Below, one piece after another: positions 501 to 46,217 of a stretch of DNA of 64,000 nucleotides. Positions within the stretch are counted from its first letter, which is position 1. Each line of letters begins with the position of its first letter. The notes below the pieces were generated by a model. It searched no databases and was not told where the DNA came from. It saw only the letters and a program-made list of their open reading frames with translations. Origin of the DNA: Yersinia massiliensis CCUG 53443 (GTDB lineage Bacteria; Pseudomonadota; Gammaproteobacteria; Enterobacterales; Enterobacteriaceae); contig NZ_HE997643.1 in NCBI RefSeq assembly GCF_000312485.1, positions 1,626,381-1,690,380 of the forward strand, read 5' to 3'. Position numbers and translations under genes: made by a program.

Positions 501-1394
501 TTATAATACAAACTCTTTCAGCCACGCCTTAAACTCAGCACCTTGCTGCGGATGACGCAAACCATAAGCAACATAGGCTTGCATATAACCGAGTTTTTCA
601 CCGCAGTTATATGACTCTCCCGTCAAGGCAACAGCATCAACAGGCTCTTCCTCTGCCAAAGCATCAATGGCATCAGTCAGTTGGATACGGCCCCAAGCGC
701 CCGGTTTGGTTTTTTCCAATAGCGGCCAAATACTGGCAGACAGCACATAGCGCCCAACAGCCGATAAATTAGATTTTAAATCGGCTGGGCTTTGTGGTTT
801 CTCCACCATGGCTTTGATACGACTGCTCTCTCCAGGGGCCAAAACGGATTTTTCACATGAAATGACGGAGTAGTTTGATAACGCATCAGGTTCGACTGCA
901 TGCACTAGCACTTGGCTTGTTCCAGTTTCTTCGAAGCGTTTGACCAACTGAGCAAGGTTATCTCGCATTAAATCTGACTTCGCATCATCAATCAGCACAT
1001 CCGGGAGCAAGACAGCAAACGGTGCATCCCCTACAAGCGGTTTGGCACATAATACCGCATGACCCAGACCCTCTGCGTGGCCTTGGCGAATGTGCATGAT
1101 GGTCACGCCCGGTGGGCAGATAGATTGTACTTCGTCCAATAGCTGACGCTTAACACGCGCTTCCAGCATGGCTTCTAATTCATAAGAAGTATCGAAATGG
1201 TTTTCTACCGCATTCTTAGATGAATGGGTGATTAAAATAATTTCTTTAATGCCCGCAGCGACGCATTCATTAACGACATATTGGATCAATGGCTTATCGA
1301 CAATAGGCAGCATTTCTTTTGGAATGGCTTTAGTAGCTGGGAGCATTCTCATGCCCAAGCCTGCAACTGGGATCACTGCTTTCAATTTGGTCAT
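501..1394 (-). CDS. galF: GalF, non-canonical UTP-glucose-1-phosphate uridylyltransferase subunit
   Basis: This GalU paralogue of 297 residues has [19 protein letters not shown] near the N-terminus, where GalU has GLGTRMLP, and [12 protein letters not shown] where GalU has [12 protein letters not shown]. These differences mark enterobacterial GalF, a weakly active relative reported to modulate GalU and UDP-glucose supply. There are two adjacent ATGs (1397 and 1394). The AGG ribosome site and E. coli GalF, which begins MTNLKAV, favour the second. The gene lies 63 nt downstream of galU on the same strand. In Yersinia the galU-galF pair flanks O-antigen clusters, which agrees with what lies upstream here. 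Confidence 0.93.
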
Positions 1395-1457
1395 CATTAA
1401 CCTACTAATCTCTTGAGCGAATTTACAATTTTTCCCGATTCAGCCGTGAAGCTGACG

Positions 1458-2348
1458 CTAGATGACTTGCTGTTTTAGCCAAGCTGCAAAATTCTCACCT
1501 TCGGTAGTATGACGCACACCATAAGTGACAAAGGCCTTCATATAACCCAACTTGTCACCGCAATCGTGAGATTTACCCGTCATATGAAAAGCTTCAACAG
1601 GCTCTTGCTCCATCAGCATCGCAATGGCATCAGTTAGCTGAATTTCATCGCCCGCACCACGTGGGGTTTTCTTCAGCAATGGCCAGATGTCTTTCGAAAA
1701 CACATACCGCCCCACTACCGCAAGGTTTGATGGCGCATCTTCCACTGACGGTTTCTCAACCACTGCCGTCATCAGGGTGCTTTCACCCGGAGCTAAATCG
1801 ACGTGTCCGCAATCAGCAATCCCGTATTTAGAGACATCTTCTCTAGGCACTGGCTCAACCATAATTTGGCTGCGCCCAGTGTCTTCGAAACGTTTGATCA
1901 TACTGGCCAGGTTTTCTTTAGATAAGTCGGCCGTTGAATCATCAAGCAAGACGTCTGGCAACAAAACAATAAACGGATTATCACCCACCATCGGCTGGGC
2001 GCAAAGCACGGCATGCCCTAGCCCTTTGGCGTGGCCTTGACGCACTTGCATGATGGTCACATCAGGTGGGCAGATATTTTTAATTTCTTTCAAAAGCTGC
2101 CGCTTAACGCGCGACTCCAGCGCAGCTTCCAATTCAAATGAGGTATCAAAATGATTTTCTATCGCATTTTTGGAAGAGTGACTGACTAGAACAATCTCTT
2201 TTACACCAGCAGCAACACATTCTTTCACGATATATTGGATAAGCGGCTTATCGACCACCGGTAGCATTTCCTTTGGAATCGCCTTGGTCGCTGGCAACAT
2301 ACGCGTCCCAAGTCCAGCGACAGGAATGACTGCTTTCAAAGACTTCAT
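1458..2348 (-). CDS. galU: UTP-glucose-1-phosphate uridylyltransferase
   Basis: The 296-residue protein makes UDP-glucose from UTP and glucose-1-phosphate for LPS core, O-antigen decoration and trehalose synthesis. It carries the [19 protein letters not shown] nucleotide-binding loop at residues 12-30, [10 protein letters not shown], and [12 protein letters not shown] near residue 230. The length equals the family norm of about 300. It is preceded by GGAG 10 nt before the ATG. It follows the O-antigen operon after a 239-nt gap (2349-2587), long enough for its own promoter, although no clear terminator or promoter was found there. It differs from galF throughout, so the pair is an old paralogy and not a recent duplication. 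Confidence 0.96.
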
Positions 2349-2587: not shown

Positions 2588-3703
2588 TCAGATACTGATA
2601 ATATCATTATAGAGTCTTATATAACTTGAAACCATTTTCTCCGAGGTAAAATGCTCTAAATATCGAATTCTAGCGTTTTCACCAAATTTCTCAGCCAATT
2701 CTACATTATTCCAAAGCTGATCCATCGCCGTTCGCAGCGCGACCGGATCTGATGGCGGTATGACTAACCCCGTTTTCTGATCAATATTAATAAAGGTTGT
2801 ACCTGTTCCTATCTCACTAGAGATTAAAGGCTTTCCATACATCGCGCCTTCCAATAAAGTGATACCAAAAGCTTCAGAACGTAAGTGAGAGGGGAACACT
2901 ACCGCATAGCAGAGGGATAACAACGCGGCCTTATCCTCGTCGGACACGGCCCCTAAAAAGGATATATTACTTATATTGAGTGCTGATACTTGCCTTTTAA
3001 GCTCGGATTCGATCGGACCAGCACCTACAATCACTATGGGATAAGAAGAGTTTTTAGCAGCTTCAATTAGGATATGTAGGCCTTTATAATAGCGGAAGGC
3101 ACCAACAAACAAGAAAAAACGCGGTCCAAACTTATTACGCCAAAATGCTATACGTTCAGGATTTGAAACTGGGTATGACTTCTCATCCAAACCGTAAGGA
3201 ATAACACACACTTTATCGGCAAATTTTTTCAGCGTTTCACTTGTGGCAACATAGTTTGGCGAAGCAGCAACAATTTTAGAGACATCACCTAAAAATCGGT
3301 TCATCAACGGGGAATACAGTTTCAGTATATTCTTTTGTTTTACGATATCAGAATGATAACTAACTACTGTTGGCTTATTTAAGCTCGCTACGAAATGAAC
3401 CATATCCATAAATGGGAATGGAAAGTGGTAATGGATAATATCCGCTTGCTGAGCAAGTTTTTTAAAGTCTTGTAAGGCTTGAAAGGAAAAAGGTGTTGAA
3501 GCCACCTCTAGATTTATTGGCGAACAATAAACAGAATGTGAACCTATCTTCTGATTTGTGACTGTGCCGCGACGGCTTAAAGAAAGTACCGTTGAATCAA
3601 TTCCCCTATTTGCCCCTCCTTCACATAACTGAAAAATGACTTGCTCAATACCGCCAAAAGAATCTGGATAATATGTCTTATAAAAATGCAATACTTTTAG
3701 CAT
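2588..3703 (-). CDS. GT4 glycosyltransferase, WbpZ/WbdC-like, O-polysaccharide initiation or adaptor step
   Basis: This 371-residue GT-B enzyme begins MLKVLHFYKTYYPDSFGGIE, the style of WbpZ (P. aeruginosa common antigen) and WbdC (E. coli O9a). The N-terminal acceptor half is followed by the donor half with LFVGAFRYYKGLHILIEA near residue 195 and a GT4 E-x7-E-type motif, SEAFGITLLEGAMYGKPLI, near residue 278. Known homologues add the first mannose or rhamnose to undecaprenyl-PP-GlcNAc, so I infer that role with GDP-sugars. It is the last gene of the minus-strand O-antigen operon, 7 nt after the preceding gene. The exact linkage cannot be read from sequence. Confidence 0.8.
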   Translation of the reverse strand: MLKVLHFYKTYYPDSFGGIEQVIFQLCEGGANRGIDSTVLSLSRRGTVTNQKIGSHSVYCSPINLEVASTPFSFQALQDFKKLAQQADIIHYHFPFPFMDMVHFVASLNKPTVVSYHSDIVKQKNILKLYSPLMNRFLGDVSKIVAASPNYVATSETLKKFADKVCVIPYGLDEKSYPVSNPERIAFWRNKFGPRFFLFVGAFRYYKGLHILIEAAKNSSYPIVIVGAGPIESELKRQVSALNISNISFLGAVSDEDKAALLSLCYAVVFPSHLRSEAFGITLLEGAMYGKPLISSEIGTGTTFINIDQKTGLVIPPSDPVALRTAMDQLWNNVELAEKFGENARIRYLEHFTSEKMVSSYIRLYNDIISI

Positions 3704-3710
3704 TATAATT

Positions 3711-4844
3711 TTATACCTGCTTATAGGCTCTTATTGTATCTTGGGCGCATTGACCCCATGAAAACGTTTCAGCTTTTATCAAGCCTTTGGCTATTGATTT
3801 AACCCGCCAGTCATCATCTACAAGACTACTAATAATTGCAGTTGTTAGCCCTTCTACATCCATCGCATCGCACATTAAGCCAGCATCGCCTAAGACTTCA
3901 GGCAATGAAGCAGCATTGGAACAAACAACTGGTACACCAGATGCCATTGCTTCAAGCACAGGCAAACCAAAGCCTTCGTAAAGCGATGGGAACAAGAATG
4001 TCCTTGCGCCCGCAAAAAGTAAAGGCAAGTCATCTGAGTTCAAATAACCAAGATAAAACAACCAACCTTCCTGTGCAGCAAGCTCAAAGCGACGATGTAG
4101 TCCTTCGCTACTCCATCCAGAAAAACCGCAAATAACTAATGGAAATTGAGAGCGAAGCTCAATGGGTAACCGCTCGTAAGCATCCAGTAGCGTTGCAATG
4201 TTCTTCCTTGGCTCGATAGTCCCGGTAAATAAGGTATATTGCCCAGCGGTCAGCCCTAGATTAGTCATTAAACTATGCAAAGAAGTATAGTTCCTAGGAT
4301 AGAAATCACCACTGCTCGCTAAAGGTGCGGATACTATTTTATCGATAGGATAATCAAAATACTCAGCGAGTTCTTTACGGGTAAATTCTGAGTCAGTAAT
4401 TAAAACATTTGCACGTTTTAAAGTTAACAATAACTCTTTTTGCATATAGCGAACACGATTCTCCGGATGGCATGCTGGCCATTTAAAAATAGAAAGATCA
4501 TGGAAAGTCGCGACTGAATGTTTCACGTAAGGAGGTAAATAAAAGTTCGTACTATGATAAATAGATTGTGCATAAGGTTTTAGTGCAAAGCTCTTCAACC
4601 AAGGTGCAGTAAGCCGATATACCTCACTAGCAAAAGCGCTATTCATTACAACTTTTTTAAGCCCTAATGTAGCATTTGAACTAAGAGTTGGCGTCGGTAA
4701 ATGATTAGATATCTTTTGGCCTTGAAGAAACAGAAGCTCCGATATCTCATCACTATTTTGCAATTCCCTAGCTAACTCATATGCATAGCGACCAATGCCC
4801 GTTAATGGATATTTAATAGCGTCAGCACCAAAAACTACTCTCAT
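3711..4844 (-). CDS. GT4 glycosyltransferase, WbpY/WbdB-like
   Basis: The 377-residue GT-B transferase opens MRVVFGADAIKYPLTGIGRY, with the conserved TGIGRYAYELAREL loop of WbpY/WbdB-type rhamnosyl- or mannosyltransferases. The donor half has TLFTGTIEPRKNIATLLDAY near residue 205 and the GT4 motif FPSLYEGFGLPVLEAMASGV near residue 283. Its ATG shares an A with the rmd stop (TAATG), so translation is coupled. In P. aeruginosa the WbpY homologue adds alpha-1,3-linked D-rhamnose, and the same donor is made by the neighbouring gmd-rmd. I infer D-rhamnosyl transfer. Mannosyl transfer cannot be excluded. Confidence 0.82.
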   Translation of the reverse strand: MRVVFGADAIKYPLTGIGRYAYELARELQNSDEISELLFLQGQKISNHLPTPTLSSNATLGLKKVVMNSAFASEVYRLTAPWLKSFALKPYAQSIYHSTNFYLPPYVKHSVATFHDLSIFKWPACHPENRVRYMQKELLLTLKRANVLITDSEFTRKELAEYFDYPIDKIVSAPLASSGDFYPRNYTSLHSLMTNLGLTAGQYTLFTGTIEPRKNIATLLDAYERLPIELRSQFPLVICGFSGWSSEGLHRRFELAAQEGWLFYLGYLNSDDLPLLFAGARTFLFPSLYEGFGLPVLEAMASGVPVVCSNAASLPEVLGDAGLMCDAMDVEGLTTAIISSLVDDDWRVKSIAKGLIKAETFSWGQCAQDTIRAYKQV

Positions 4845-5739
4845 TATTTATCTTCCAACATCCATTGAAGTGTCTTCTCTAATGGCGGAGCATTCCAACC
4901 TTTGACAATACTTCGTAATTTACTCGCATTCCCGCATAACATTTTTACTTCATTAGCACGAATAAAGGCTGGATTAACACGAATAGAGATATTGTGTAAT
5001 GTTATCGCCTCGCACAATGCAATGACCTCACGTAATGAGTAGGTCTTGCCAGTACAAACATTGACTGTCTCGCCTATAGGTTTGGCTATTAATAGACCTA
5101 GATAAGCTTTAACAAGTGCTCTAACATCTGTAAAATCCCGCCAGACGTCTAGATTACCTAACTCTATCTCGCTTGCTTTATGCCTAAAATGAGAAACAAT
5201 TTTAGGCAGTAAAAAGTCTTCTGATTGCCCAACACCGGTATAATTAAATGGCCGTGCAATAATAATCGGTAATTTTTCTGTCCATAAGTTGGCCATATAT
5301 TCCATAGCCAACTTACTCACCGCATAATCATTGGCTGGATTTACCGCCGATGCCTCACTCAATACACCTTCTTGTGTATTTCCATAGACATTAGCACTGC
5401 TAGCAAGTAAAACTGCCTCGATATTATCGGCAACGGTGTTCAGAGCAACCAATAAATTCCTGGTGCCCACAACATTTACATTGTAAAAAGCCGCAGGATC
5501 TCCGTGGCCAATAAAAGCGATTGCTGCTAGATGTACAACAAGATGAGGTTTCACCTGCTCAACAATAGCGTTGAGCCTTTTCGCATCAAGTAAATCGACT
5601 TGAAAATAATCAGATTTAGTTGATGGCTGTGATCCTAAACCAAAAACCCGGTAACCAGCAGCGGATAACTCCGCTGCCATGTAATGGCCCGTGAACCCTT
5701 GAATACCGGTGATCAGGGCACGTTTGCCATTGAATTCCA

Positions 5740-5740
<1 letters not shown>
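4844..5740 (-). CDS. rmd: GDP-6-deoxy-4-keto-D-mannose reductase (GDP-D-rhamnose synthesis)
   Basis: This extended short-chain dehydrogenase of 298 residues has GIQGFTGHYM at residues 12-21 (NAD(P)-binding GxxGxxG), the active-site pattern SSANVYGN...YAVSK near residues 114-143, and ARPFNYTGVGQ, typical of RMD enzymes. It would reduce C4 of GDP-4-keto-6-deoxy-D-mannose, the Gmd product, to give GDP-D-rhamnose. Its ATG overlaps the gmd stop (TGATG) and its stop overlaps the next glycosyltransferase start. A GDP-6-deoxy-D-talose reductase of the same fold is the main alternative. The linkage with WbpX/Y/Z-like transferases favours rhamnose. Confidence 0.85.
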
Positions 5741-8182
<2,442 letters not shown>

Positions 8183-9397
8183 TTATTTTTCCTTAATTAA
8201 TTTCTTGACAGTAACAGGGATTATTTGAAGGCAATTATCCCATAATAAGTCTTGCTTATCATCTTGATCTTGCATCTCAGCATTGATTTCAATTTCACTT
8301 AAAACACAACGAATTGATGACATAAATTCGCTGGTGCTCGAGCATACAATTAATTTATTTGAGTTTGCGTAGCGCTCATACCCTCTCAATGCAGTTTCAG
8401 TAGCAATCACATATTTATTTGAATACAAGGCTTCGGCAGTTTTAATATTAGAACCTCCGCCATGAGGAATTGGCAACAGAAAGGCAGTTGCTAATTCTTT
8501 TACTGCAGCCAAATCTTCATCTGAAAGCATATAAAGTAGCTGCAACCTGTCTTGATTAATACTACTATAATCAGAATCAATCAACTGGTTATAAAGGCTC
8601 TCACAAACGCTACCAACAACTACAAGTTTTGAGTCTGGAGGTATACAAGCTAGTGAATCACCAACACAAGCTTTAAAACCTTTAAAGTTAGGAGGGTGTC
8701 CGCTTGCAACGTATAAAATCCAAGGGGATTTAGGTAATCGCTCTTTCCAATATTTTAATTTTTCAGCCGAAGCTTTCCATTTAGCAATACCATTTCTAGC
8801 TAGAGTAACATTTCTCGCTCCAAAACCGGATAATATCTCAACATCGTTTTCCGTGACTGCACAAGTAATATCAGCTTCTAATGCTGCAGTTATTTCTAAT
8901 TGCTTAATTTTTTCGACCACTAATTCAGAATCACTAATAGAATAGCTATCTAAAATATCTTTTTTAAGTAACCATTCAATATTTTGGGAACCATAAATTA
9001 GTATGGGTTTTTTAGTCAAAAAATCATTCTGTAACCGATTTACTAATGGCCATAGCCACGGTTGCTCAATATGAATCACATCTATGTCATTAGGAATTCT
9101 TTGTACAAAATCTTGAAAAAAAGCATCATCCTTTGAAACATATTCACCGCTTTGGAGATCAGTAATTAGCGGTATCAATTTACCTTCGAATTTTCTGTAC
9201 GGTGAGTTAATTTCAAATGGCATATCAAGTGATTCTACATCACCTTTAGAATAACTTTCTGGTTCATATAGAGCAAAATTAATAACTTGAAATCCATTAT
9301 TCTCGTATACTTTCTTTATATTTGAAACTCTTACCTGCCCCCCATGCCTAGGGTTCAGTATTGGATACGTACTTAACAACAGTACCTTAATTGACAT
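8183..9397 (-). CDS. Predicted GT-B (GT4-like) glycosyltransferase, specificity unknown
   Basis: The 404-residue protein begins MSIKVLLLSTYPILNPRHGG, a typical GT-B N-terminal strand plus Gly loop. It has VIHIEQPWLWPLV near residue 108, an ARNGI turn near 203, and a C-terminal stretch PIPHGGGSNIKTAEALYSNK near residue 318 that replaces the usual GT4 E-x7-E. It has no counterpart in the minimal WbpX/Y/Z set, so it may add a side residue or a second backbone linkage. It is AT-rich. AAGG lies a few bases before the ATG. The stop codon abuts the next gene, and the 92-nt gap before it (9398-9489) is the longest within the operon. Confidence 0.65.
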   Translation of the reverse strand: MSIKVLLLSTYPILNPRHGGQVRVSNIKKVYENNGFQVINFALYEPESYSKGDVESLDMPFEINSPYRKFEGKLIPLITDLQSGEYVSKDDAFFQDFVQRIPNDIDVIHIEQPWLWPLVNRLQNDFLTKKPILIYGSQNIEWLLKKDILDSYSISDSELVVEKIKQLEITAALEADITCAVTENDVEILSGFGARNVTLARNGIAKWKASAEKLKYWKERLPKSPWILYVASGHPPNFKGFKACVGDSLACIPPDSKLVVVGSVCESLYNQLIDSDYSSINQDRLQLLYMLSDEDLAAVKELATAFLLPIPHGGGSNIKTAEALYSNKYVIATETALRGYERYANSNKLIVCSSTSEFMSSIRCVLSEIEINAEMQDQDDKQDLLWDNCLQIIPVTVKKLIKEK

Positions 9398-9489: not shown

Positions 9490-10851
9490 CTACGGCATTT
9501 TTTTATTAATAAGAGCTTTAAGATTTTTAATATTCAGGCCGAAACTCTTATTTTTTATTTTCAAATCAGCCTCATCAATAAACTTGTTAAGTTTCTGCAC
9601 TTCTAACTTTAAGTCATCTACTGTTCTAGCAAGCTCGTCTATTTTACGGTTGGATTCATTAATCATCTCTTTAATTTCATTATTTAACATTTCTCTCTCC
9701 GCTAACTGTACTAAATAATATTTCAGATGACAGTCATATATATCATTCTCACTTGGATTATTTAATCTCCAATCATAATATTCTTTATTATATAAGAATT
9801 CTAATGGCACAATATAATTGAGAAGAGAAAAATTGAGTGCTTTTATAGTGTATTCTTGATCAGCACATTCACTGAACAACTTAAACGGGGAGTCACCTAA
9901 AATAACAACTTTTTTTCCATATAAAATTGCTTCAATTCCAATACTAGAATTGATGGTTACTATTTCTTTAGACTTAATAATAAACTCTTGTGGGCTTAAC
10001 TTTTCACTACTTGGAGTTATTTCAGAATAGTCAACATATCCTGAAGGATGTTTTCTTATTAAAACATTATTAGATAAACTTCTACAGTATCTTATGAGTT
10101 CATAATTTGAAAAGCCATTTGAAAAAGCAAGAATATTAGAGTCATCTTCGACTTGGAGCGGAACACCTATATCAAAAATCTCTTCGAGATTAGCCGGTTC
10201 CGGTGGCTCATTTACCCTAAACAGCCGTAACAGATAATCACGATCAAAGTTATTATTAACTGGCTCCATACTTGTTACATTTAAAGTATCAAACCTCTGC
10301 TTAAGTTCGGTATTTCCATTTACACCTTGAAAGTCAAAATAACATGTACCTATATAATCAGGTGCTCGCAATGGCCCCATTTCATTATGTATTACACGTA
10401 ATCCTAATTTTTCAGCAACAAACTTAACACTTGGTATATTACACCATAGAACAACTGCAGAAATATCACAATTTGATTTCAAATCATTAAAGATATCAAT
10501 TATTAATGCTTCTAGAGGCAGATATCGTTCTGTCAGTAATTTACTCCAAACAATGTTCTTAGATTTATATTTATCCTCTAAGTCTTGAAATATCTTAGTG
10601 TCAATAAAAACCTTTTCTACACTATTCAAAATATCTAATGTTGGGATATTTGCATTATATGATGCTAACCAATTTTTAGGTATATCTTGATGAGGTACAT
10701 CAAAGATTTTTTCTTGCCCTATATGTATAGATGACTCAAGAGGAAATCTATCTAATGAAAGATAGAAACTCGTTAAAAAAGTTGTGTGTGTATATTTCAC
10801 ATCATAAGGTAACCAAAAAAAAACAAATTTATTATCTTTTTTTGAAAACAT
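9490..10851 (-). CDS. GT99-like (beta-Kdo transferase type) protein with C-terminal coiled coil; possible chain terminator/ruler
   Basis: This 453-residue protein is not a GT4 enzyme. It has HNEMGPLRAPDYIG with Glu157, acidic residues 235-237, RKHPSGY with His268, and INSSIGIEAILYGKKVVILG at 300-319, a stretch resembling Kdo-transferase/KpsC-type proteins. From memory, the GT99 domain of WbbB uses Glu158, Asp232 and His265, nearly the same spacing. Residues about 390-433 form a coiled coil of about six heptads (Ile397, Ile404, Val411, Val418, Ile425, Ile432 at one core position). It starts inside the methyltransferase 3' end (20-nt overlap), with AGGTGA 6 nt upstream. I infer a capping beta-Kdo transferase whose coil may set chain length. 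The family call is by eye only. Confidence 0.55.
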   Translation of the reverse strand: MFSKKDNKFVFFWLPYDVKYTHTTFLTSFYLSLDRFPLESSIHIGQEKIFDVPHQDIPKNWLASYNANIPTLDILNSVEKVFIDTKIFQDLEDKYKSKNIVWSKLLTERYLPLEALIIDIFNDLKSNCDISAVVLWCNIPSVKFVAEKLGLRVIHNEMGPLRAPDYIGTCYFDFQGVNGNTELKQRFDTLNVTSMEPVNNNFDRDYLLRLFRVNEPPEPANLEEIFDIGVPLQVEDDSNILAFSNGFSNYELIRYCRSLSNNVLIRKHPSGYVDYSEITPSSEKLSPQEFIIKSKEIVTINSSIGIEAILYGKKVVILGDSPFKLFSECADQEYTIKALNFSLLNYIVPLEFLYNKEYYDWRLNNPSENDIYDCHLKYYLVQLAEREMLNNEIKEMINESNRKIDELARTVDDLKLEVQKLNKFIDEADLKIKNKSFGLNIKNLKALINKKMP

Positions 10852-11620
10852 ATATATTCACCTGACCTTGAACGTGTTCAATAGGATACATATCTACCTC
10901 ATTTAATAATTGATGAGTATTAACTCCAGATTCATCAAACTTATAAACATTTTGGCCATACCAGGTGATTAGTTCTAAGTCAGTTCCAAATTTATCTAAA
11001 AAATCACTATGTGTATAATGTCTAAAGTGAAATTTGTGTGGATTTAAAACTAAACTGTGTATTTCTTCATTAGGAACAGAAACAATAATCAATCCATTAG
11101 ATTTACAAGATTTTTTTATTTCATCAAACAAAAGTCCATCTTTATCAACATGTTCTAGAGATTCAAAACATGTAATTATATCAAAGGTATTTACTGGTAA
11201 TGTGAACGGATAAAGTTTATTTGAGAATATGTTATTTTCTCTAGTAAAGTTAATGTTGGCTTCATTAATAGCTTCTGATGAACCATCAATTCCAATGAAA
11301 TTAACATTAGAAAAATTTGAGGACAGCATATAAGTGCCATATCCATTACCACAAAAAATATCCGCACCATTCAATATGGGTTCTTCTTTTTTCAGCATAA
11401 TATCTATTGCTAATTCGTATCGAGAGGTATGATCACGCCGAATACCCTCTACAGTATTAGCTGTTTGTCGTTCACCACTATACAGAGAATAATCTTTTAT
11501 ATCACTAATCGGTTTATCAACAATTTCCTGCTCAATATTGCTGATATTATCGCTCACTGGATTATTAATCCCCTGATTATTTTTATCATTTTTTAGTAAT
11601 TTCAACATCTGCTTTAACAT
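10832..11620 (-). CDS. SAM-dependent methyltransferase, probable O-polysaccharide end-capping or sugar methylation
   Basis: The 262-residue class I methyltransferase has its SAM loop in NGADIFCGNGYGTYML (about residues 85-100), an acidic post-beta2 residue in VNFIGIDGSSEAIN, and FDIITCFESLEHVDKDG near 145 as the motif with the substrate-side acidic residue. The first 45 residues are polar and probably disordered. GGAGGG lies 7 nt before the ATG at 11620, which decides the start; the gene then overlaps wzt by 35 nt. E. coli O9a-type clusters place the WbdD methyltransferase/kinase terminator right after wzt, the same position. It could cap the chain or methylate internal rhamnose. No kinase domain is present. 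Confidence 0.72.
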   Translation of the reverse strand: MLKQMLKLLKNDKNNQGINNPVSDNISNIEQEIVDKPISDIKDYSLYSGERQTANTVEGIRRDHTSRYELAIDIMLKKEEPILNGADIFCGNGYGTYMLSSNFSNVNFIGIDGSSEAINEANINFTRENNIFSNKLYPFTLPVNTFDIITCFESLEHVDKDGLLFDEIKKSCKSNGLIIVSVPNEEIHSLVLNPHKFHFRHYTHSDFLDKFGTDLELITWYGQNVYKFDESGVNTHQLLNEVDMYPIEHVQGQVNIYVFKKR

Positions 11621-12869
11621 ACAATATCCCTCCAAAATTATTTTTCAAAAGATTACTTGGCGTATTGACCGTAAATACCTTAGCACAGAAAACTCGATCA
11701 TAAAAATCAGCAGAATATGGATCATCCTTAATACCGATATCTATTCTGTAATCTCCCATGAAAAACGGAATTTTGAACTTCCATGAAACAATTGCAACAT
11801 TATCCTTTTCCATATTGGAAAGCTTTTTATTATAATAATTAGAGTTCATACTCAGTAGAGGGAAACCTGCCTTATCACCTATTAATAAACCGATAACAGC
11901 TCCTGATGGTGTATCTTCGTTGCAGCGAATAGTGGCTTTAAATATAACTTCATCTTCTGCATAAAAGGAATTACTCTCTTCACCATCAGAATTTAGGATT
12001 TCAAAACTAATAAATTCAAGATTCTTACTACCAGTATCTACAAGTAGTGAGTTTGCTCTTAGGTTTGGATCGACTTTAATTTCGTCATTTGACACTTCAG
12101 AATGTTCTATCTTTACATTCTTATTTCCGCTACTGGATTTTTTTTCAACTAAGTCATTTTGATAAAAATCACAAACTGTTGCTGCATCACCAATAGATCT
12201 AATCTCACCATCAGCTATATATATTGCTCTGTTGCAAAACTGTCTTACTTGTGCAAGAGAATGGCTCACAAAAAGAATAGTTACTTTATCTGCAAGTAAC
12301 GAGTTCATCCGTTGCATACATTTTGCTTGAAATGCTAAATCACCAACACTGAGCGCTTCATCGACAATTAGAATATCTGGTTTTACAGCAGTCGCTACCG
12401 AAAATGCCACTCGTGCTTGCATGCCACTTGAATATGTCCTTACTGGTTTATCAAAATAATCACCAACGGCCGCAAAGCTTTCAATTTCAGGCATAATGCT
12501 AGAAATCTCCTCTTCGCTGAACCCTAAAAGCTGGCCCGCCATATAAGCATTCTGGCGCCCAGTGAAATCAGGATGAAACCCCATACCAAGCTCAAGCAAC
12601 GCTGCTACACGGCCTTCTTTATATATTGAACCTGTCGTTGGTGCGGTAGTACCTGTAATCATTTTGAGGAGAGTACTTTTACCTGCACCATTGACACCGA
12701 TAATACCAACAGACTCACCTGGACTTATAGAAAAAGTTATATTCTTTAATATCCATTTTTCCGTATGTCTTTTTTTATATGGAATAGAAATCCATTCAAC
12801 AAAACGACTGAATTTGGTCGGATACTGCTTATATGCCTTTCCAACATTATTAACAATAATACTGCTCAT
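11586..12869 (-). CDS. wzt: O-antigen export ABC transporter ATP-binding protein with carbohydrate-binding domain
   Basis: The 427-residue Wzt-type ATPase has Walker [15 protein letters not shown] near residue 58, signature YSSGMQARVAF near 147, Walker B ILIVDEAL near 165 and the switch FVSHS near 199. After about residue 245 it continues with about 180 residues (FEILNSDGEESNSFYAEDEV onward) that fit the C-terminal beta-sandwich of Wzt proteins. That domain reads a cap on the non-reducing end in E. coli O9a. Short Wzt proteins lack it, so a terminal modification is expected here, made by the two genes that follow. Start and wzm stop overlap (TAATG). Confidence 0.93.
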   Translation of the reverse strand: MSSIIVNNVGKAYKQYPTKFSRFVEWISIPYKKRHTEKWILKNITFSISPGESVGIIGVNGAGKSTLLKMITGTTAPTTGSIYKEGRVAALLELGMGFHPDFTGRQNAYMAGQLLGFSEEEISSIMPEIESFAAVGDYFDKPVRTYSSGMQARVAFSVATAVKPDILIVDEALSVGDLAFQAKCMQRMNSLLADKVTILFVSHSLAQVRQFCNRAIYIADGEIRSIGDAATVCDFYQNDLVEKKSSSGNKNVKIEHSEVSNDEIKVDPNLRANSLLVDTGSKNLEFISFEILNSDGEESNSFYAEDEVIFKATIRCNEDTPSGAVIGLLIGDKAGFPLLSMNSNYYNKKLSNMEKDNVAIVSWKFKIPFFMGDYRIDIGIKDDPYSADFYDRVFCAKVFTVNTPSNLLKNNFGGILYVKADVEITKK

Positions 12870-13663
12870 TATAATTCATCCACCATATCTGCAGAATGCT
12901 TCTTGAAAAGTTTTAAGCCTAAAATACAAAAAATGACGGATAAAAATATTACAAATTTCAATGGTGCCAGCGTTGGCCACTGTCCATGAACAAAGATATT
13001 TTGATATGAACCTATTAAGCCAGCCATTGGATTCCACCTGATCAAGCCTTGAGCCCACTCAGGTAATGTTCCAATCATATAAACTATGGGGGTGAACCAG
13101 AACCAGAATTGAAGCAATATATTGACAAATTGCCCGACATCACGAAAGAACACGTTAACTACGCCTAGAGTTATTCCCAGCCCAATTGCAAAAATAATCT
13201 GTAATATTATAAGAGGTATAATACCAAGAATAACCAGGCCGGGGAAATTCCCACTTATTAATAGGAATAAAATGAAAAGAGTAAATATTATTAAAAAATT
13301 CAACAATGACGATAAAGCAACAATTAATGGCAAACAAATTCTTGGGAAATTAAGTTTCTTTAATAAGTTAGCATTATCTGTAAATACATTTTGGCTTCTA
13401 GATAGAATTTCGGCAAACAGTCCCCATGTTAATATGCCTGCACATAAATATATGCTGTAAGAGAATGATCCTGATGTTTGCGGCAAGCGTGCTTGCATCA
13501 ATTGAGAAAAAATAACCGTATATACAACTATCATAGATAAAGGTTGTAATACTAACCAAGAGACACCTAACATACTCATTTGGTAGCGTGACTGAAAATC
13601 TCGCTTCACGCTGCCAAAAATGAAGCCTCGGTATCGATAAATTGCCAATAACATCTCTTTCAC
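12869..13663 (-). CDS. wzm: O-antigen export ABC transporter permease
   Basis: This ABC-2 type permease of about 264 residues has six hydrophobic segments; the N-terminal region includes FGSVKRDFQSRYQMSMLG, typical of Wzm/KpsM. It forms the inner-membrane channel through which finished undecaprenyl-linked O-polysaccharide passes, partnered by Wzt. The best start is GTG at 13663, with AGGTGG 9 nt upstream and 2 nt after the manB stop. An ATG three codons later has no properly spaced ribosome site. No wzx or wzy is present, so the cluster is ABC-transporter dependent. Confidence 0.93.
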   Translation of the reverse strand: MKEMLLAIYRYRGFIFGSVKRDFQSRYQMSMLGVSWLVLQPLSMIVVYTVIFSQLMQARLPQTSGSFSYSIYLCAGILTWGLFAEILSRSQNVFTDNANLLKKLNFPRICLPLIVALSSLLNFLIIFTLFILFLLISGNFPGLVILGIIPLIILQIIFAIGLGITLGVVNVFFRDVGQFVNILLQFWFWFTPIVYMIGTLPEWAQGLIRWNPMAGLIGSYQNIFVHGQWPTLAPLKFVIFLSVIFCILGLKLFKKHSADMVDEL

Positions 13664-13665: not shown

Positions 13666-15042
13666 TTATTTTCCACCTAGCAGTGCTAATATTTCTTTTG
13701 TCTTACTCTGCATTAGTACCATACTCCCCACAGACTCAACATTTAAGCGGACCACTGGTTCTGTATTAGACACTCTTAAATTAAACCGCCAATCACTATA
13801 CTCGATACTAATTCCATCCGTTAAATCAATAGCAACAGCGTCGAGCTCGTAAATAGTTCTAATTTTAGTAATACTGTCTTTAGCATCTTTTAGTTTGAGG
13901 TTAATTTCACCTGATGCAGGAAACTCTCGAATACGATCACCAACTAATTGACTCAAGGATTTATGCTTCACGCATAATAACTCAGCAACCAGCAGCCATG
14001 GAATCATTCCGCTGTCACAATATGCGAAGTCTCTGAAATAATGGTGTGCACTCATTTCACCACCATACACGGCATCTTCTTTGCGCATACGCTCTTTGAT
14101 AAAAGCATGTCCCGTTTTCGACATGACTGGAATACCGCCTGCATTTTCAACGATATCAATTGTATTCCAGGTTAACCGAGGGTCATGAATTATCTTGGCA
14201 CCGGCTTCTTTCTTTAAGAAGGCCTCAGCCAGCAACCCTACAATATAGTAACCTTCAATGAACTTTCCATTTTCATCAAACAGGAAACAACGATCAAAAT
14301 CGCCATCAAATGCAATCCCCATATCAGCATGAGAGTCAATGACTGACTTTTCAGTATCAGCACGGCATTCAGGTAATAGCGGATTGGGAATACCATTGGG
14401 GAATGTACCATCAGGATGATGGTGAAGTTTTACAAATTCGATGGGTAGATGCGCAGCAATAAAACGTTTTTCTATTTCATCAATAACATGCCCTGCAGCA
14501 CCATTACCAGAGTTAATGACTAATTTTAGTGGGCGAGTGAAGTTTTTAAAATCGATATAGCTCATTAAGTGGTCAACATACTCTTTAAGTATCGAGATTG
14601 TTTTATAGCTACCTCTTTTATTTTTATCGACCGACTTAAAGTTATTTTTTTCAGCCAACTCTTGTATATCACGTAAGCCAGTATCACCACTTATTGGCTT
14701 AGCATTATCTCTAACTAACTTCATACCGTTATAATTGATTGGATTATGACTAGCAGTCACTTCTATTCCGCCATCGACTCCTAAAAAAAAAGTAGCGAAA
14801 TAAATCTCCTCCGTACCACTTAGTCCAATATCCAAAACATCACTCCCGGCATCCATCAGTCCTTCAGCCAAGGCCATTTTTAATGATTCACTTGTCAAAC
14901 GAACATCACCACCGACAACAACTGTTTTAGGCTTTAAATATTCACCGAAGGCTCGACCAATACGGTAAGCAATATCTTCATTTAATTCTGAGCCCAATTG
15001 ACCACGAATGTCATAGGCTTTAAAACAAGTTAGGGTATTCAT
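13666..15042 (-). CDS. manB: Phosphomannomutase
   Basis: The 458-residue alpha-D-phosphohexomutase interconverts mannose-6-phosphate and mannose-1-phosphate for GDP-mannose synthesis. The phosphoserine loop is in [17 protein letters not shown] near residue 95, the Mg2+-binding loop FDGDFDRC near 240, and the sugar loop [10 protein letters not shown] near 335. The reading frame runs open to 15129, but ATG 15042 has GAGGAAAG 5 nt upstream and matches the family N-terminus ([10 protein letters not shown]). That places the start 13 nt after the manC stop. It could also supply colanic-acid precursors, but it lies within the O-antigen operon. Confidence 0.95.
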
Positions 15043-15055
15043 TCTTTCCTCTAAA

Positions 15056-16474
15056 TCAGCAGCGACCATAGTGGTCTTTAATTCTGATGATATCGTCATC
15101 TTCCAAATAAGAACCTGACTGAACTTCAATCAATTCAAGTGGGATTTTCCCCGGATTCTCAAGCATATGAAGCGAGCCAATAGGAATAAAAGTCGATTGA
15201 TTTTCAGTGATTAAGAATGTTCTATCCCCAATAGTGACTTTTGCCGTACCCGATAAAACAATCCAATGTTCTGCTCGGTGATGATGCATTTGCATAGAGA
15301 ATGCACCGCCAGGTTTCACTGTGATACGGTTAACATTAAAGCGCTGCTCATTAACCACGATATCGCTGCGCCCCCATGGTCGATAGGTTTCTCTATGGCG
15401 CCGATATTCACTACGCTTCGTTTTTTTCAGGTGTTCAACAACTTTTTTAACATCTTGTACTTTAGATTTGTCCACCACTAAAACGGCATCTTTAGTACTC
15501 ACGATCACCAAATTATCGACACCCACCGCCGCAATTAATTTCTCATCAGTATTGATATAACAATTCTGTGTGTCATGCAGGAATGCATCGCCTGTAATGG
15601 CATTCCCAAATTCATCCTTATGACTAACATCCCACAGCGCGGACCAGGACCCTACATCACTCCAACCGGCATCAAGAGACACGACAACAGCACTGCTCGT
15701 TTTTTCCATAACGGCATAGTCGATAGATTCATCCGGACAAACGCTAAATTTATCCCGATCGATGGTGATAAAATCATTATCTGAGTCCGTATCTTTCATT
15801 GCAGCCTTGCAGGCTTCAAGTATATCCGGCCTGAATCTCTGTAGTTCCTCAATATAACGTTTGGCGCGGAACATAAACATGCCACTATTCCAATAATACT
15901 CACCCGTACGAATATATTGCTCTGCTGTTTCGATATCTGGTTTTTCAACAAAACGTTTAACTGTGAATGCCTCAGAAAGATCACTAACCGTTACTTCACC
16001 ACGATGTATATAACCATAACCAGTTTCAGGGCCGGTTGGTACAATGCCAAAGGTCACTAGACTGTCTTTTTCGGCAAACGGAAGTGCATCTCTAACCGCT
16101 TGGTGGAAAGCATCATTGTCATTGATGATGTGGTCGGCTGCTAACACCAACATAATTGGGTCATCACCTTGGGAAATAGCATTTAGTGCAGCCAACGCAA
16201 TAGCAGGGGCTGTATTACGACCAACTGGTTCCAATATTATATTATGAGATAGCTTATTAATTTGACGCAATTGTTCCGCGACCAAGAATCGATGTTCCTC
16301 ATTACAAATGACAACAGGTTCTCTGGCTGAAATCCCTTCTAGACGGTTCACTGTTTCCTGCAGCATTGAACTTACCCCATGTAAACGTAAAAATTGTTTT
16401 GGGTAAAGTTCTCTTGACATCGGCCACAGACGACTTCCTGTTCCGCCCGCCATAATCACTGGAAGTAACATCAT
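15056..16474 (-). CDS. manC: Mannose-1-phosphate guanylyltransferase / mannose-6-phosphate isomerase
   Basis: This bifunctional enzyme of 472 residues has the pyrophosphorylase motif [20 protein letters not shown] at residues 8-27 and a C-terminal cupin isomerase half with [17 protein letters not shown] near 400. It makes GDP-mannose, the precursor for Gmd. It is the first gene of the O-antigen operon, about 120 nt downstream of the ops element. A 13-nt gap separates it from manB. Length and motifs match the usual RfbM/CpsB type. Confidence 0.96.
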
Positions 16475-16594: not shown

Positions 16595-16625
16595 ACGCTA
16601 CCGCCCTTGGCTTTACAGCTACCAA
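16595..16625 (-). promoter_or_regulatory. JUMPstart/ops element for RfaH before the O-antigen operon
   Basis: On the minus strand, 16605-16595 reads GGCGGTAGCGT, an exact ops core, preceded by TGTAAAGCCAAG as in the JUMPstart consensus. The element lies in the leader about 120 nt upstream of manC. RfaH recruited here lets RNA polymerase read through long O-antigen operons. The surrounding 496-nt gap (16475-16970) is AT-rich and otherwise holds only the divergent promoters for manC and yegH, which I could not place securely. Confidence 0.9.
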
Positions 16626-38763: not shown

Positions 38764-39405
38764 ATGAACCGCTTTGTGATTGCGGAGCCGAGGCTTTGTA
38801 TTGGATGCAATACCTGCATGGCTGCTTGCAGCCAAGTACATAAAGCCGAAGGTTTACAAGAGCATCCCAGATTGACCGTAATGCGTAACGCCACGGTTAC
38901 GGCACCGATTCTCTGTCGTCACTGTGAAGATGCGTGGTGTGCGCGTGTGTGCCCTGTTAATGCCATCACCCTGACTAATAACGCAGTTGAATTGGATGAA
39001 ACCACCTGCATCGGCTGCAAACTATGTGGTATCGCCTGCCCATTTGGCGCGATCACACCGTCAGGCAGTAAGCCCTTAGCCGTACCGGAAACCTTCCCGG
39101 AATACATCCCCATGACCGAACTGTCCGATGTCCCTTTCAGCCCAGCGAATATGAATCCTTTCTTGGCTTGGACGGCGGGTGTGCGCGCTGTGGCCGTGAA
39201 ATGCGACCTGTGCAGCTTCCAACCCCAAGGGCCGGAATGCGTGCGGGTCTGTCCAACCAACGCCTTAATGCTGGTTGATGAGCAGAGCATTGAACAAGCG
39301 AGTCAGGCTAAGCGCATGGCCGCGGCCAGTTGGTTTGCTAATGACCTGCCCTTTATAACCGTGGACACCTCGCCCGCCATCTCTCACGAGGAGCAAAAAA
39401 GATGA
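38764..39405 (+). CDS. hyfA: Hydrogenase-4 electron-transfer subunit HyfA (polyferredoxin)
   Basis: The 213-residue protein has four [4Fe-4S] cysteine clusters: CIGCNTCMAAC near residue 12, CRHCEDAWCARVCP near 51, CIGCKLCGIACP near 81, and CDLC...CVRVCP near 140-160. It passes electrons from the formate dehydrogenase ferredoxin toward HyfH/HyfI. GGAGGG is 7 nt before the ATG at 38764 but only 1 nt from the in-frame ATG at 38758, which fixes the start and agrees with E. coli HyfA (MNRFVVAEP). It is the first gene of a tightly packed operon. Confidence 0.94.
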   Translation: MNRFVIAEPRLCIGCNTCMAACSQVHKAEGLQEHPRLTVMRNATVTAPILCRHCEDAWCARVCPVNAITLTNNAVELDETTCIGCKLCGIACPFGAITPSGSKPLAVPETFPEYIPMTELSDVPFSPANMNPFLAWTAGVRAVAVKCDLCSFQPQGPECVRVCPTNALMLVDEQSIEQASQAKRMAAASWFANDLPFITVDTSPAISHEEQKR

Positions 39406-41429
39406 TGAATTCACTTGAGCTATTGTCGCTCTCTTTATTGCTCTATCTCGCGGGTGCATTACTTTCCCTGCTCTTGGCGCGGCGCGAAACACTGGCGATT
39501 TATGCCTCTGGGCTGGCCTCATTGCTCGGCGGTATCGCGGGTTTATTGGCTGCTGCCCCCACATTACTGGGCGGCGGCATCATTACCTTCGTGACAGCCG
39601 GGCCATTCCCCTTCGCCGCCTTCAGTTTGCGCCTTGATCCACTGGCGGCCTTTATGCTGCTGGTGATTTCATTGTTGGTCGTGATAACCGCACTCTATTC
39701 ACTGGCCTATGTACAGGAATACAAAGGGCGCGGGGCGTGGGGAATGGGGGTGTTTATGAACCTGTTCATCGCCTCGATGGTGGCCTTGGTGGTCGTCGAT
39801 AACGCCTTCTATTTCATCGTGTTCTTCGAAATGATGTCACTGGCCTCTTACTTCTTGGTGATTTCAGATCAAGATGACGATGCCATCGACGCGGGCCTGC
39901 TCTATTTTCTCATTGCCCACGCCGGTTCCGTACTCATCATGATTGCCTTCTTCTTGCTCTATCGCCTCAGCGGTAGTCTAGAATTCGCCGCCTTCCGGCA
40001 AGCCAATCCACAACCCATCATGGCCTCGATTATCTTCTTGCTGGCCTTCTTTGGTTTTGGTGCAAAAGCGGGGATGCTCCCCCTGCACGGCTGGCTGCCA
40101 CGGGCGCATCCAGCGGCACCATCCCATGCCTCAGCCTTGATGTCCGGTGTCATGGTCAAAATCGGCATCTTCGGCATCATCAAGGTGGGCATTGATTTAC
40201 TCGGCGCCAGCCAACTGTGGTGGGGCCTGGTCGTGCTGGCGTTCGGCGCAGTGTCTTCCGTATTAGGGGTGCTGTATGCACTAGCAGAGCACGATATCAA
40301 ACGGCTCTTGGCTTATCACACGGTTGAAAACATCGGCATCATCTTAATGGGGGTCGGTGTTGGCATGATAGGCATCGCCAGCCAGCAACCGGTATTGGCG
40401 GCCCTTGGCCTGCTCGGCGCGCTCTACCATCTGCTTAACCACGCCGTCTTCAAAGGGCTACTGTTCCTCGGTGCCGGTGCCGTCATTTATCGCATCCACA
40501 CCAAAGACATGGAGAAAATGGGCGGGCTGGCCAGAATGATGCCTTATACCGCGCTGGCCTTTTTGGTGGGCTGTATGGCGATCTCGGCCCTGCCGCCGTT
40601 TAACGGTTTTGTCAGTGAATGGTTCACCTACCAATCCCTGTTTACCATGACCAAAGACGGCGGCTTTATTATTCGCCTCGCAGGGCCGATTGCCATTGTG
40701 ATGCTCGCCATCACCGGTGCGTTGGCCGCGATGTGCTTTGTGAAAGTGTATGGCATTAGCTTCTGTGGCTTGCCGCGCACAGAAAAAGCGGCACAAGCGC
40801 GAGAAGTGCCGTGGCCGATGACCGCTTCCATGTTGCTGCTGGCGTTACTTTGCCTCGCACTGGGCGTGGGAGCTTCCCATGTCGCGCCCGTCATCGCCCG
40901 CATCGCCTCTAGTCTGATTACCACCTCACCCGCGCCGACGTTGCAGGTGGCGCAAGGAGCCGTACTGTTCCCGCAACACAGCACGCAGGCGATGCTGTCC
41001 ACTCTCTATATCTTCTTCGGCTTACTTCTCTTGCCGCTGGTGATTTTACTGGTCACCCACCTCTACAAAGGCAGCCGCTTGACCTTTCGTCATGGCGGAG
41101 ATCCTTGGGCCTGTGGCTATGCCTACGAACAAGACATGACGGTTTCGGCTGGGGGCTTTACCCAACCGCTGCGGGTGATGTTTGCCCCACTCTACCGTAT
41201 GCGTAAAAAACTGGACCCCGCGCCGATGATGAAAACGGCTTTGGAACATTCCGTTAATGGTGCCACCAGAGTGGAGCCGGTATGGGACGACCACGTTGTG
41301 GCCCCGCTTATCCGCGCTATCCAATGGCTCAGCCAGCGTATTCAGTGGCTGCAACAGGGTGATTTCCGCCTCTACTGTCTGTATGTGGTCGCCGCACTGG
41401 TGGTCCTGCTGATTGTCGCGGCTATTTAA
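39402..41429 (+). CDS. hyfB: Hydrogenase-4 membrane subunit HyfB
   Basis: The 675-residue antiporter-like subunit (NuoL/HycC type) has about 14-16 helices. GAKAGMLPLHGWLPRAHPAAPSH is near residue 210, with the conserved Lys and His of the proton channel, and AEHDIKRLLAYHTVENIGII is near 293. It anchors and probably couples the peripheral arm to proton movement. It overlaps hyfA by 4 nt (ATGA). The length is close to E. coli HyfB (672). Confidence 0.95.
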   Translation: MMNSLELLSLSLLLYLAGALLSLLLARRETLAIYASGLASLLGGIAGLLAAAPTLLGGGIITFVTAGPFPFAAFSLRLDPLAAFMLLVISLLVVITALYSLAYVQEYKGRGAWGMGVFMNLFIASMVALVVVDNAFYFIVFFEMMSLASYFLVISDQDDDAIDAGLLYFLIAHAGSVLIMIAFFLLYRLSGSLEFAAFRQANPQPIMASIIFLLAFFGFGAKAGMLPLHGWLPRAHPAAPSHASALMSGVMVKIGIFGIIKVGIDLLGASQLWWGLVVLAFGAVSSVLGVLYALAEHDIKRLLAYHTVENIGIILMGVGVGMIGIASQQPVLAALGLLGALYHLLNHAVFKGLLFLGAGAVIYRIHTKDMEKMGGLARMMPYTALAFLVGCMAISALPPFNGFVSEWFTYQSLFTMTKDGGFIIRLAGPIAIVMLAITGALAAMCFVKVYGISFCGLPRTEKAAQAREVPWPMTASMLLLALLCLALGVGASHVAPVIARIASSLITTSPAPTLQVAQGAVLFPQHSTQAMLSTLYIFFGLLLLPLVILLVTHLYKGSRLTFRHGGDPWACGYAYEQDMTVSAGGFTQPLRVMFAPLYRMRKKLDPAPMMKTALEHSVNGATRVEPVWDDHVVAPLIRAIQWLSQRIQWLQQGDFRLYCLYVVAALVVLLIVAAI

Positions 41430-41440
41430 GGAGACGAGCA

Positions 41441-42394
41441 ATGCCAACTACTGATATGCCTGCAGTCTCTATGATTGCCTTCGCCTTCGGGCAGGCGCTT
41501 TTCATGCTGGCGCTGGCACCGCTAATGTCCGGTATTTCCCGCATGGTAAAAGCCCGAATGCACTCTCGCCGTGGGCCGGGTGTGCTGCAAGAGTACCGCG
41601 ACTTAGCCAAGCTGCTGAAGCGGCAAGATGTGGCACCGGCGAATGCTGGCGTCATCTTCCGCCTGATGCCCTATGTGCTGTTGGGTAGCATGCTGCTGAT
41701 CGCGATGGCGCTGCCGATTTTCACCTTGGCGTCACCCTTTGGTGTGGCAGGGGATCTGATCGCTCTGCTTTATCTGTTTGCGCTGTTCCGCTTCTTCTTC
41801 TCGTTAGCCGGTTTGGATAGCGGCAGCATCTTCGCGGGTATCGGCGCGAGTCGTGAGTTAACGCTGGGTGTGCTCGTCGAACCCACGCTGATCCTCTCGC
41901 TGCTGGTCGTGGGGCTGATCGCCGGTTCCACCAATATCGGCACCATTAGCACTGCGCTATCTGAAGGCCACTGGCAATCACCAACCGCCACTGCATTGGC
42001 GCTGCTGGCCTGCGGCTTCGCGGTATTTATCGAAATGGGCAAAATCCCGTTCGATGTCGCCGAGGCTGAACAAGAGTTACAAGAAGGGCCATTAACCGAA
42101 TATTCCGGTGCTTCGCTGGGGCTGGTCAAATGGGGCATCAGCCTGAAACAAGTGGTTGTCGCGCAACTGTTCCTCGGCGTGTTTATCCCGTTTGGCAAAC
42201 TGGCGGTGCTGAGCGGAACCGGCATGCTATGGGCGCTGGTCGCCTGCGTGGTCAAGTTAGTGGTGGTGTTTACCCTCGCCTCTGTGGTGGAAAACAGTAT
42301 TGCCCGAGGGCGTTTCTTGTTGACCTCTCATGTTACTTGGTTGGGGTTTGGCGTCGCTGCCCTATCCCTCGTTTTCTATCTCACGGGTCTTTAA
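41441..42394 (+). CDS. hyfC: Hydrogenase-4 membrane subunit HyfC
   Basis: The 317-residue NuoH/HycD-type subunit has about eight helices. RMVKARMHSRRGPGVLQEYR near residue 30 and FVIEMGKIPFDVAEAEQELQE-like sequence near 190-210 are the conserved NuoH loops that contact the hydrogenase module. AGGAG lies 6 nt before the ATG. It links the soluble [NiFe] module to the antiporter-like subunits. Confidence 0.95.
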   Translation: MPTTDMPAVSMIAFAFGQALFMLALAPLMSGISRMVKARMHSRRGPGVLQEYRDLAKLLKRQDVAPANAGVIFRLMPYVLLGSMLLIAMALPIFTLASPFGVAGDLIALLYLFALFRFFFSLAGLDSGSIFAGIGASRELTLGVLVEPTLILSLLVVGLIAGSTNIGTISTALSEGHWQSPTATALALLACGFAVFIEMGKIPFDVAEAEQELQEGPLTEYSGASLGLVKWGISLKQVVVAQLFLGVFIPFGKLAVLSGTGMLWALVACVVKLVVVFTLASVVENSIARGRFLLTSHVTWLGFGVAALSLVFYLTGL

Positions 42395-42412
42395 GGCGCT
42401 AATCACCCCATC

Positions 42413-43918: not shown

Positions 43919-43929
43919 GGGAGTAGAAA

Positions 43930-44580: not shown

Positions 44581-44584
44581 TGAA

Positions 44585-46216: not shown

Positions 46217-46217
46217 C

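Follow-up and report, generated by a model that had tools for sequence, protein, structure and literature searches.

Gene content of the locus

The window, that is, the whole stretch of 64,000 nucleotides of Yersinia massiliensis CCUG 53443 that was analyzed, carries a cluster that is probably of the ABC-transporter O-antigen type and dedicated to a D-rhamnan. The order along the minus strand, on which all features given below lie, is wzm, wzt, a methyltransferase gene, a gene for a GT99 protein, two GT4-type genes (one a weak match), gmd, rmd, two further GT4 genes and two genes of the galU/galF type. The permease gene wzm (12869..13663; PF01061, E 1.5e-22) precedes wzt (11586..12869), the product of which combines the ABC ATPase (PF00005, E 5.5e-22) with a C-terminal carbohydrate-binding domain, hereafter abbreviated as CBD (PF14524 Wzt_C, E 6.8e-20). 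Next comes a class I SAM-dependent methyltransferase in a frame of its own (10832..11635), as the first-pass annotation had proposed; it measures 267 residues from a TTG start or 262 from the ATG at 11620, and is identified by PF08241 (E 2.8e-11) and other families as well as by a family alignment with L008, L026, L027, L088, L089 and L090. The open frame of the GT99 protein (9490..10851, 453 residues) overlaps that of the methyltransferase by 20 nt, and the latter overlaps wzt by 35-50 nt, which suggests that the three genes are translationally coupled.

Four other glycosyltransferases are encoded in the cluster: a GT4-like protein of 404 residues (8183..9397), with a PF13692 match (E 3.1e-4, 21.4 bits) that falls below the cut-off of 27, and three GT4 enzymes with PF00534 matches, of 464 residues (6788..8182; E 1.2e-16), 377 residues (3711..4844; E 1.7e-28) and 371 residues (2588..3703; E 2.1e-33). 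GDP-mannose 4,6-dehydratase is encoded by gmd (5740..6774; TIGR01472, 478.9 bits against a cut-off of 415), and the adjacent gene (4844..5740) is probably rmd, for the GDP-6-deoxy-4-keto-D-mannose reductase that yields GDP-D-rhamnose. The latter assignment follows the nearest solved relatives in phmmer searches, namely 4lw8 (called a 'putative epimerase', E 3.7e-93), 2pk3 (E 6.2e-36) and 6x3b (E 1.6e-35), the last two being named as such a reductase; the gene may instead encode a related reductase. Together, gmd and rmd would fit the supply of GDP-D-rhamnose, in keeping with the D-rhamnan setting originally supposed, and a D-rhamnose polysaccharide is predicted from these genes. The genes manB (phosphomannomutase, 13666..15129) and manC (mannose-1-phosphate guanylyltransferase, 15056..16474) were named by eye and by blastp to related clusters; manB keeps its place in L008, L017, L088 and L089. 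The manC gene is preceded, within sequence that looks JUMPstart-like by eye, by an exact 9-bp copy (16597..16605) of what we take to be the ops consensus. It is the sole exact match among the 16 with up to one mismatch in the window; one exact 9-mer in 64 kb may arise by chance, and it is the context that counts. The gene kdsB, for CMP-Kdo, is found elsewhere in the same genome (407 bits, cut-off 155).

Family and active site of the GT99 protein

The 453-residue protein matches the GT99 family PF21912 with 98.5 bits (curated cut-off 27), while GT4 families are absent from its five Pfam matches (E <= 1) and an NCBIfam scan returned no match. Its catalytic domain, delimited by structure alignment and residue mapping onto Raoultella terrigena WbbB (residues 8-386, 9694..10830), has the modified GT-B fold of WbbB, including the helical insertion. 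The protein is therefore GT99-like and distinct from GT4, as first suggested, and the Kdo-type site that had been proposed on the basis of Glu157, acidic residues 235-237 and His268 aligns with Glu158, Asp232 and His265 of WbbB. More precisely, with R. terrigena WbbB as the ruler, its residues Glu158, Arg163, Asn179, Gln228, Asp232, Ser233 and His265 correspond to Glu157, Arg162, Asn178, Gln233, Asp237, Ser238 and His268 of the window protein and are identical in 12 of 12 aligned sequences. The base Glu (E157), the QxxxD motif with the nucleophile Asp (Q233..D237) and the histidine of the HP motif (H268) are thus all present; the acidic run reads E-D-D, its last residue, Asp237, being the nucleophile. 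These donor-site residues are invariant also in an alignment of 50 sequences, with the exception of Ser238, found in 49 of them. (This alignment comprises the window protein and 49 of 58 loci; L041, L052, L055, L068, L070, L075, L077, L080 and L081 were omitted as truncated, duplicate or divergent sequences.) According to excerpts of PMC9587256, Asp232 is the nucleophile of WbbB, Glu158 the base, and the Kdo carboxylate lies on Gln228. By homology, the GT99 domain of the window protein would transfer beta-Kdo in a retaining reaction.

The acceptor side shows a different pattern. In WbbB, Arg12, Pro17 and Trp20 hold rhamnose and Trp54 stacks on GlcNAc. The first three positions are occupied by Lys, Thr and Thr in the window protein, in that of the congener G008 and in G795, which are the proteins from clusters with gmd and rmd; the remaining nine of the 12 aligned sequences retain Arg12 and Trp20, and seven of those nine Pro17. 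Trp54 (Trp61 in the window protein) is kept in all 12, but its column is unconserved in the 50-sequence alignment, so that the alignment is less firm on the acceptor side than on the donor side. Our reading is that these three GT99 proteins probably use the same donor as WbbB with a different acceptor, for which D-rhamnose is the candidate.

PF21912 is carried by 2 of 25 genomes of the genus and 8 of 392 of the family, while Y. massiliensis is the only carrier among 394 genomes of the order and 369 of the class (family, order and class sets being even draws from larger groups); the score in its genome is 101 bits, and none of 14 control genomes gave a match. In six of the eight family carriers the protein is a frame of 1130-1202 residues, the exceptions being the window protein and the 587-residue protein of G795, which shares 50% identity with it and lies beside a single 1243-residue protein with three GT4 matches in place of two glycosyltransferase genes. 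A scan of genome contigs with the window protein as sole query found no relatives among 40 pattern matches, the same scan with the alignment as query recovered the 58 loci, and a distant DNA search of E. coli genomes gave no match. We then compared 64 GT99 proteins, namely those of the 58 loci, the window, G008, G795, L003, L005 and L006 (L004, L007 and six fused family proteins stand outside this set, and some of them coincide with records already counted as loci). Free proteins with a tail of 40-420 residues account for 25 of them, tailless proteins for 17 and long proteins, taken as fused, for 19, the last three being cut by contig ends. The fused class is defined by length, and L025, which falls in it, more probably represents a free GT99 whose coil is very long. 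The window protein belongs to the free form, as had been claimed: it ends at residue 453, 73 residues past the GT99 profile, and the polymerase modules that follow the coil in fused proteins are absent.

Partners: the methyltransferase and Wzt

The order wzt-methyltransferase-GT99 recurs in G008, where the methyltransferase is 70% identical, and in the Accumulibacter loci L026 and L027 (36 and 38%). These two are the only cases of this methyltransferase between wzt and GT99 among the 57 loci with listed neighbors (all but L040), and the third Accumulibacter locus, L070, has none among its listed neighbors. The coil script finds no coil in the GT99 of L026 and one of 28 residues in L027. When 295 genomes of the family were searched with the methyltransferase, six hits emerged: the window itself, G940 and G824 (about 50% identity) and three weaker ones; matches in G833 and G908 were not counted, being weak and forming domains of 1415- and 841-residue proteins that adjoin wzm/wzt. 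The methyltransferase of G940 and G824 follows wzm-wzt, as in the window, and the next gene is not a GT99; the head of its product instead resembles KrkA (GT140, K13 capsule; E 5.8e-11), and the alignment brings the base Glu and the QxxxD and HP motifs into register. The methyltransferase thus accompanies two families of Kdo transferases, GT99 and GT140-like, which lack clear sequence similarity to each other.

It could nevertheless be argued that the adjacency is incidental and that the methyltransferase acts on in-chain sugars or some other substrate. G150 has a more divergent member (36%) within 20 kb of sequence devoid of other matches to the window's O-cluster proteins, G137 and G187 contain two further weak relatives (E about 1e-38), and the solved relatives of the methyltransferase profile are generic methyltransferases. 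We consider this explanation unlikely, because the order wzt-methyltransferase-terminator holds in G000, G008, L026, L027, G940 and G824, spanning Accumulibacter and two genera of the family to which the window belongs. As to origin, the first-pass description of the locus as a split capping module is doubtful if taken as history: no chain named WbdD appears among the 5 and 51 solved methyltransferase matches listed (compared by name), and G795 retains GT99, Wzm, Wzt and the sugar genes without any relative of the methyltransferase genome-wide (E <= 0.001).

The CBD of Wzt provides information on the nature of the cap. That of the window is 79% identical to its counterpart in G008, 58% in G795 and 45% in G940 and G824. 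Additional relatives, with 27-30% identity and, among the few dozen sequences compared, blastp E values of 7e-15 or better, occur in L063, L064, L074/L075 and L078, where they adjoin free GT99 proteins with coils and where the listed neighbors include no relative of the window methyltransferase (E <= 1e-3, in a search for this methyltransferase family only). Since each cluster with a related CBD has a protein of the Kdo-transferase type, and the methyltransferase is absent or unmatched in some of them, Kdo is favored as the recognized cap and Wzt would recognize it. Yet the window CBD shows no significant similarity to the CBD of KpO12 Wzt, which reads a beta-Kdo cap (blastp E 0.92), and its best solved relatives, both weak and labelled 'ABC transporter', are 8dky (E 0.007) and 6o14 (E 0.01), which we take to be the Aquifex CBD entries. 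The cap could therefore be a methyl sugar or methylated Kdo; Aquifex CBDs bind 3-O-methyl sugars (PMC9445017, in part).

A stricter form of the scheme that we favor would have the cap made in two obligatory steps, Kdo being added and then O-methylated, with Wzt admitting methyl-Kdo only. The presence of the methyltransferase beside both GT99 and GT140-like enzymes with related CBDs would fit this form, as would the dissimilarity to the KpO12 CBD and an 880-residue protein of Enterovibrio (L081), which unites a methyltransferase, a hexapeptide acyltransferase, a Kdo-transferase-like domain (Capsule_synth, unmatched by PF21912) and a coil. However, the methyltransferase domain of the latter is a generic match only (31% over 159 residues), the 58% identical CBD of G795 occurs in a genome where no relative of this methyltransferase was found, and phrase searches of the literature retrieved nothing on methylated Kdo, so that we regard compulsory methylation as improbable.

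Coiled-coil tail, chain termination and comparison with known systems

Residues 382-440 of the GT99 protein (9532..9708) form the only coiled-coil stretch detected in it by a COILS-type script with approximate weights and calibration. When residues 385-440 were shuffled 1000 times, its maximum score of 1.91 was reached in 3 cases, and the other 11 O-cluster proteins tested score 1.28 or less (methyltransferase, 1.11); the script does give some false calls, such as short stretches within the GT99 domain of G927 (121-150) and G1058 (105-136). The AlphaFold model has one helix at 368-434, overlapping the coil, and the heptads originally placed at about 390-433 lie inside both segments. A second, short helix (441-451, 9499..9531; block pLDDT 53-68) follows. 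Relatives such as G008 and G940 have basic amphipathic C-terminal ends, whereas a hydrophobic-moment script picked the coil rather than helix 441-451 in the window protein; that this helix touches the membrane or a polymerase would be a guess. The protein also lacks at its end the S-x-S-W motif seen in 15 of 64 terminators (62 GT99-type and two GT140-like, a set different from that of the tail survey). Tandem repeats are absent from its coil, the sole row reported between 9400 and 11700 being at 11580-11602, outside it.

By analogy with O9 WbdD and O12 WbbB, in which coil length sets chain length (PMC11231755, in part), the coil would act as a ruler. It could also be merely an oligomerization or membrane-scaffold element, considering that it is short (about 59-67 residues), that 17 of 64 GT99 proteins are tailless and that the script predicts a coil in the tail of 16 of the 25 free tailed ones (L074 and L075 of these sharing one genome) and none in the other nine. 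The precedent of WbdD and WbbB makes this quite improbable, and so does the comparison of the G940 and G824 terminators, which share 316 of 326 N-terminal residues and almost the whole of the C-terminal end while containing 20 and 2 copies, respectively, of an eleven-residue unit, a difference of exactly 18 units (19.6 and 2.2 copies of a 33-bp tandem repeat according to TRF). An assembly fault seems unlikely, because many of the G940 units differ from each other; these two genomes are the only representatives of their genus in our data. That rulers vary in nature has precedent, given that variation in coil length is described for putative methyltransferase genes in E. coli group 3 capsule clusters (excerpts of PMC13171606).

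We thus propose that the GT99 protein terminates the chains and controls their length in an O-antigen cluster of the ABC-transporter type, adding a Kdo cap and carrying its own coil, and assign to this reading a probability of about three in four. Chain growth on undecaprenyl diphosphate would be the task of separate GT4 enzymes. Using CMP-beta-Kdo, the GT99 domain would form an intermediate in which Kdo is covalently bound to Asp237, Glu157 being the base, and place one beta-Kdo on the non-reducing end, thereby blocking further sugar addition. The C-terminal coil would keep the active site off the membrane and the polymerase, so that, as we propose, only chains of sufficient length could reach it. 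The CBD of Wzt would then recognize the cap and admit the chain to export. Methylation of the cap, either at Kdo or at the adjoining last sugar, would most likely be the role of the methyltransferase, which is probably translationally coupled; that Kdo itself is the acceptor of the methyl group is the weakest step, and we rate it at somewhat less than even. The reverse assignment, in which the methyltransferase is the true terminator (forming 3-O-methyl-D-rhamnose) and GT99 adds Kdo elsewhere, for instance as a side or adaptor residue, is very unlikely even if a 3-O-methyl-D-rhamnose cap is on record for the D-rhamnan of Campylobacter fetus and for Aquifex (PMC9445017, in part, citing Senchenkova 1996) and the CBD matches noted above point weakly the same way, because G795 has no relative of the methyltransferase in its genome (E <= 0.001), the CBD relatives in L063, L064, L074/L075 and L078 adjoin free GT99 proteins and no relative of this methyltransferase among the listed neighbors (E <= 1e-3), and the coil, which the terminator carries in known systems (excerpts of PMC11231755), sits on GT99.

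The proposed Kdo-capping terminator is closest to WbbB of R. terrigena and Klebsiella O12 (GT99-coil-GT102-GT103), with which it shares the fold, the Kdo-donor residues and the location of the coil after GT99. The coil script places the coil of the O12-type WbbB of plasmid record L003 at 401-440, so the window protein resembles the front of WbbB, ended just past the ruler. It differs in stopping there, in leaving polymerization to separate GT4 genes and in its acceptor residues; its cluster adds a methyltransferase gene, and its Wzt-CBD is without detectable similarity. ORF7 of Klebsiella O4 (GT137, CMP-Kdo-dependent) is likewise a free Kdo-adding terminator with a C-terminal coil and polymerases in other proteins, but it has another catalytic family and fold and an extra helical-repeat bundle, and excerpts of PMC11231755 mention no methyltransferase partner. 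WbdD of E. coli O9 and O8 is also a coil-ruler terminator apart from the polymerase, with methylation in the cap; there the methyl(-phosphate)-adding activity resides on the coil protein, whereas in the window it is the Kdo transferase that bears the coil, with the methyltransferase as a protein of its own. KrkA (PMC12887879, in part), the nearest solved relative of the G940/G824 head, has a GT99-like fold but is a polymerase module of the E. coli K13 capsule rather than an O-antigen terminator, and the word 'coiled' occurs 0 times in that paper. The Aquifex aeolicus WzmWzt system is similar in its rhamnose-rich chain and CBD-bearing Wzt, and differs in its methylated-sugar cap (PMC9445017, in part), the CBD similarity being as weak as noted above (E 0.007 to an entry taken to be that of Aquifex). 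Finally, the O-antigen clusters of E. coli O101/O162 contain a gene for a putative coiled-coil methyltransferase suspected of length control, the coil in this case lying on the methyltransferase itself (excerpts of PMC13168486).

The initial interpretation is therefore mostly right and less novel than it suggested. The arrangement does differ from those of O9a WbdD and O12 WbbB, but Klebsiella O4 provides a proven case of a Kdo terminator that is free and carries a coiled coil (excerpts of PMC11231755), and free tailed forms make up 25 of our 64 GT99 proteins. The elements have all been described before (excerpts of PMC11231755), namely free coiled-coil terminators that work with separate polymerases, coil rulers, the GT99 family and Wzt proteins that read a cap; the locus combines known parts in a new way and does not represent a new type of system. 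What appears new, within the literature searched (the main papers on GT99, WbbB and termination being outside its scope), is a free coil-bearing GT99 terminator in a cluster of the D-rhamnan type, its coupling to a separate methyltransferase, and the replacement of GT99 by a GT140-like head beside related partners. A tentative extension, with the balance of probability against it, is that the cap is a modular product of two enzymes, a conserved methyltransferase and Wzt reader combining with interchangeable coil-bearing Kdo transferases (GT99, or GT140-like in another genus) to give an O-methylated Kdo terminus; the coil might then change by whole 33-bp repeats, so that chain length would evolve in single steps.

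The window cluster separates Kdo transfer, length measurement and methylation, which are confounded in the known prototypes. Clusters with GT99 plus methyltransferase, GT99 alone or a GT140-like enzyme plus methyltransferase, all with related Wzt readers, form a natural set in which recognition by the exporter is directly testable, and the nearly identical terminators of G940 and G824, with 20 and 2 repeats, offer a ready-made natural experiment on the ruler model. In typing and in predicting glycans, a free GT99 gene beside wzt may be considered a likely beta-Kdo chain terminator.

A shared motif following the coil

The motif S-x-S-W-x-x-T-x-P-(L/F)-R, located C-terminal to the coil region, is present in 15 of the 64 terminators compared, among them those of loci L017, L026, L027, L079 and L088, and occurs in free GT99, long GT99 and GT140-like proteins. 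In the same comparison of 64 terminators, the GT99 protein of the window does not have this motif.

Additional genes of the window and a duplicated locus

The O-antigen cluster ends in an adjacent pair of galU/galF-type genes (window 501-2348, minus strand). The window also contains a formate hydrogenlyase-type operon (39402-53310, plus strand), in which hydrogenase 4 subunits B, D and F exceed the NCBIfam cut-offs and which includes formate dehydrogenase alpha. In Dyella jiangningensis, the same GT99 locus occurs twice in one genome (L074 and L075).

Variation in coil length and domain fusion

The GT140-like Kdo transferases with coil of two species of the same genus are nearly identical outside the number of their eleven-residue repeats, which amounts to 20 copies in one (L088:10130-11914) versus 2 in the other (L089:8533-9735). 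A single protein of 880 aa from Enterovibrio norvegicus (L081:8840-11482) joins a methyltransferase, a hexapeptide acyltransferase, a Kdo-transferase-like domain and a coil. The GT99 protein of a member of the Desulfuromonadales (875 aa, from position 1286 of L025) has coils predicted across residues 423 to at least 771 and ends with the S-x-S-W motif described above; it is possibly a free terminator carrying a very long ruler.
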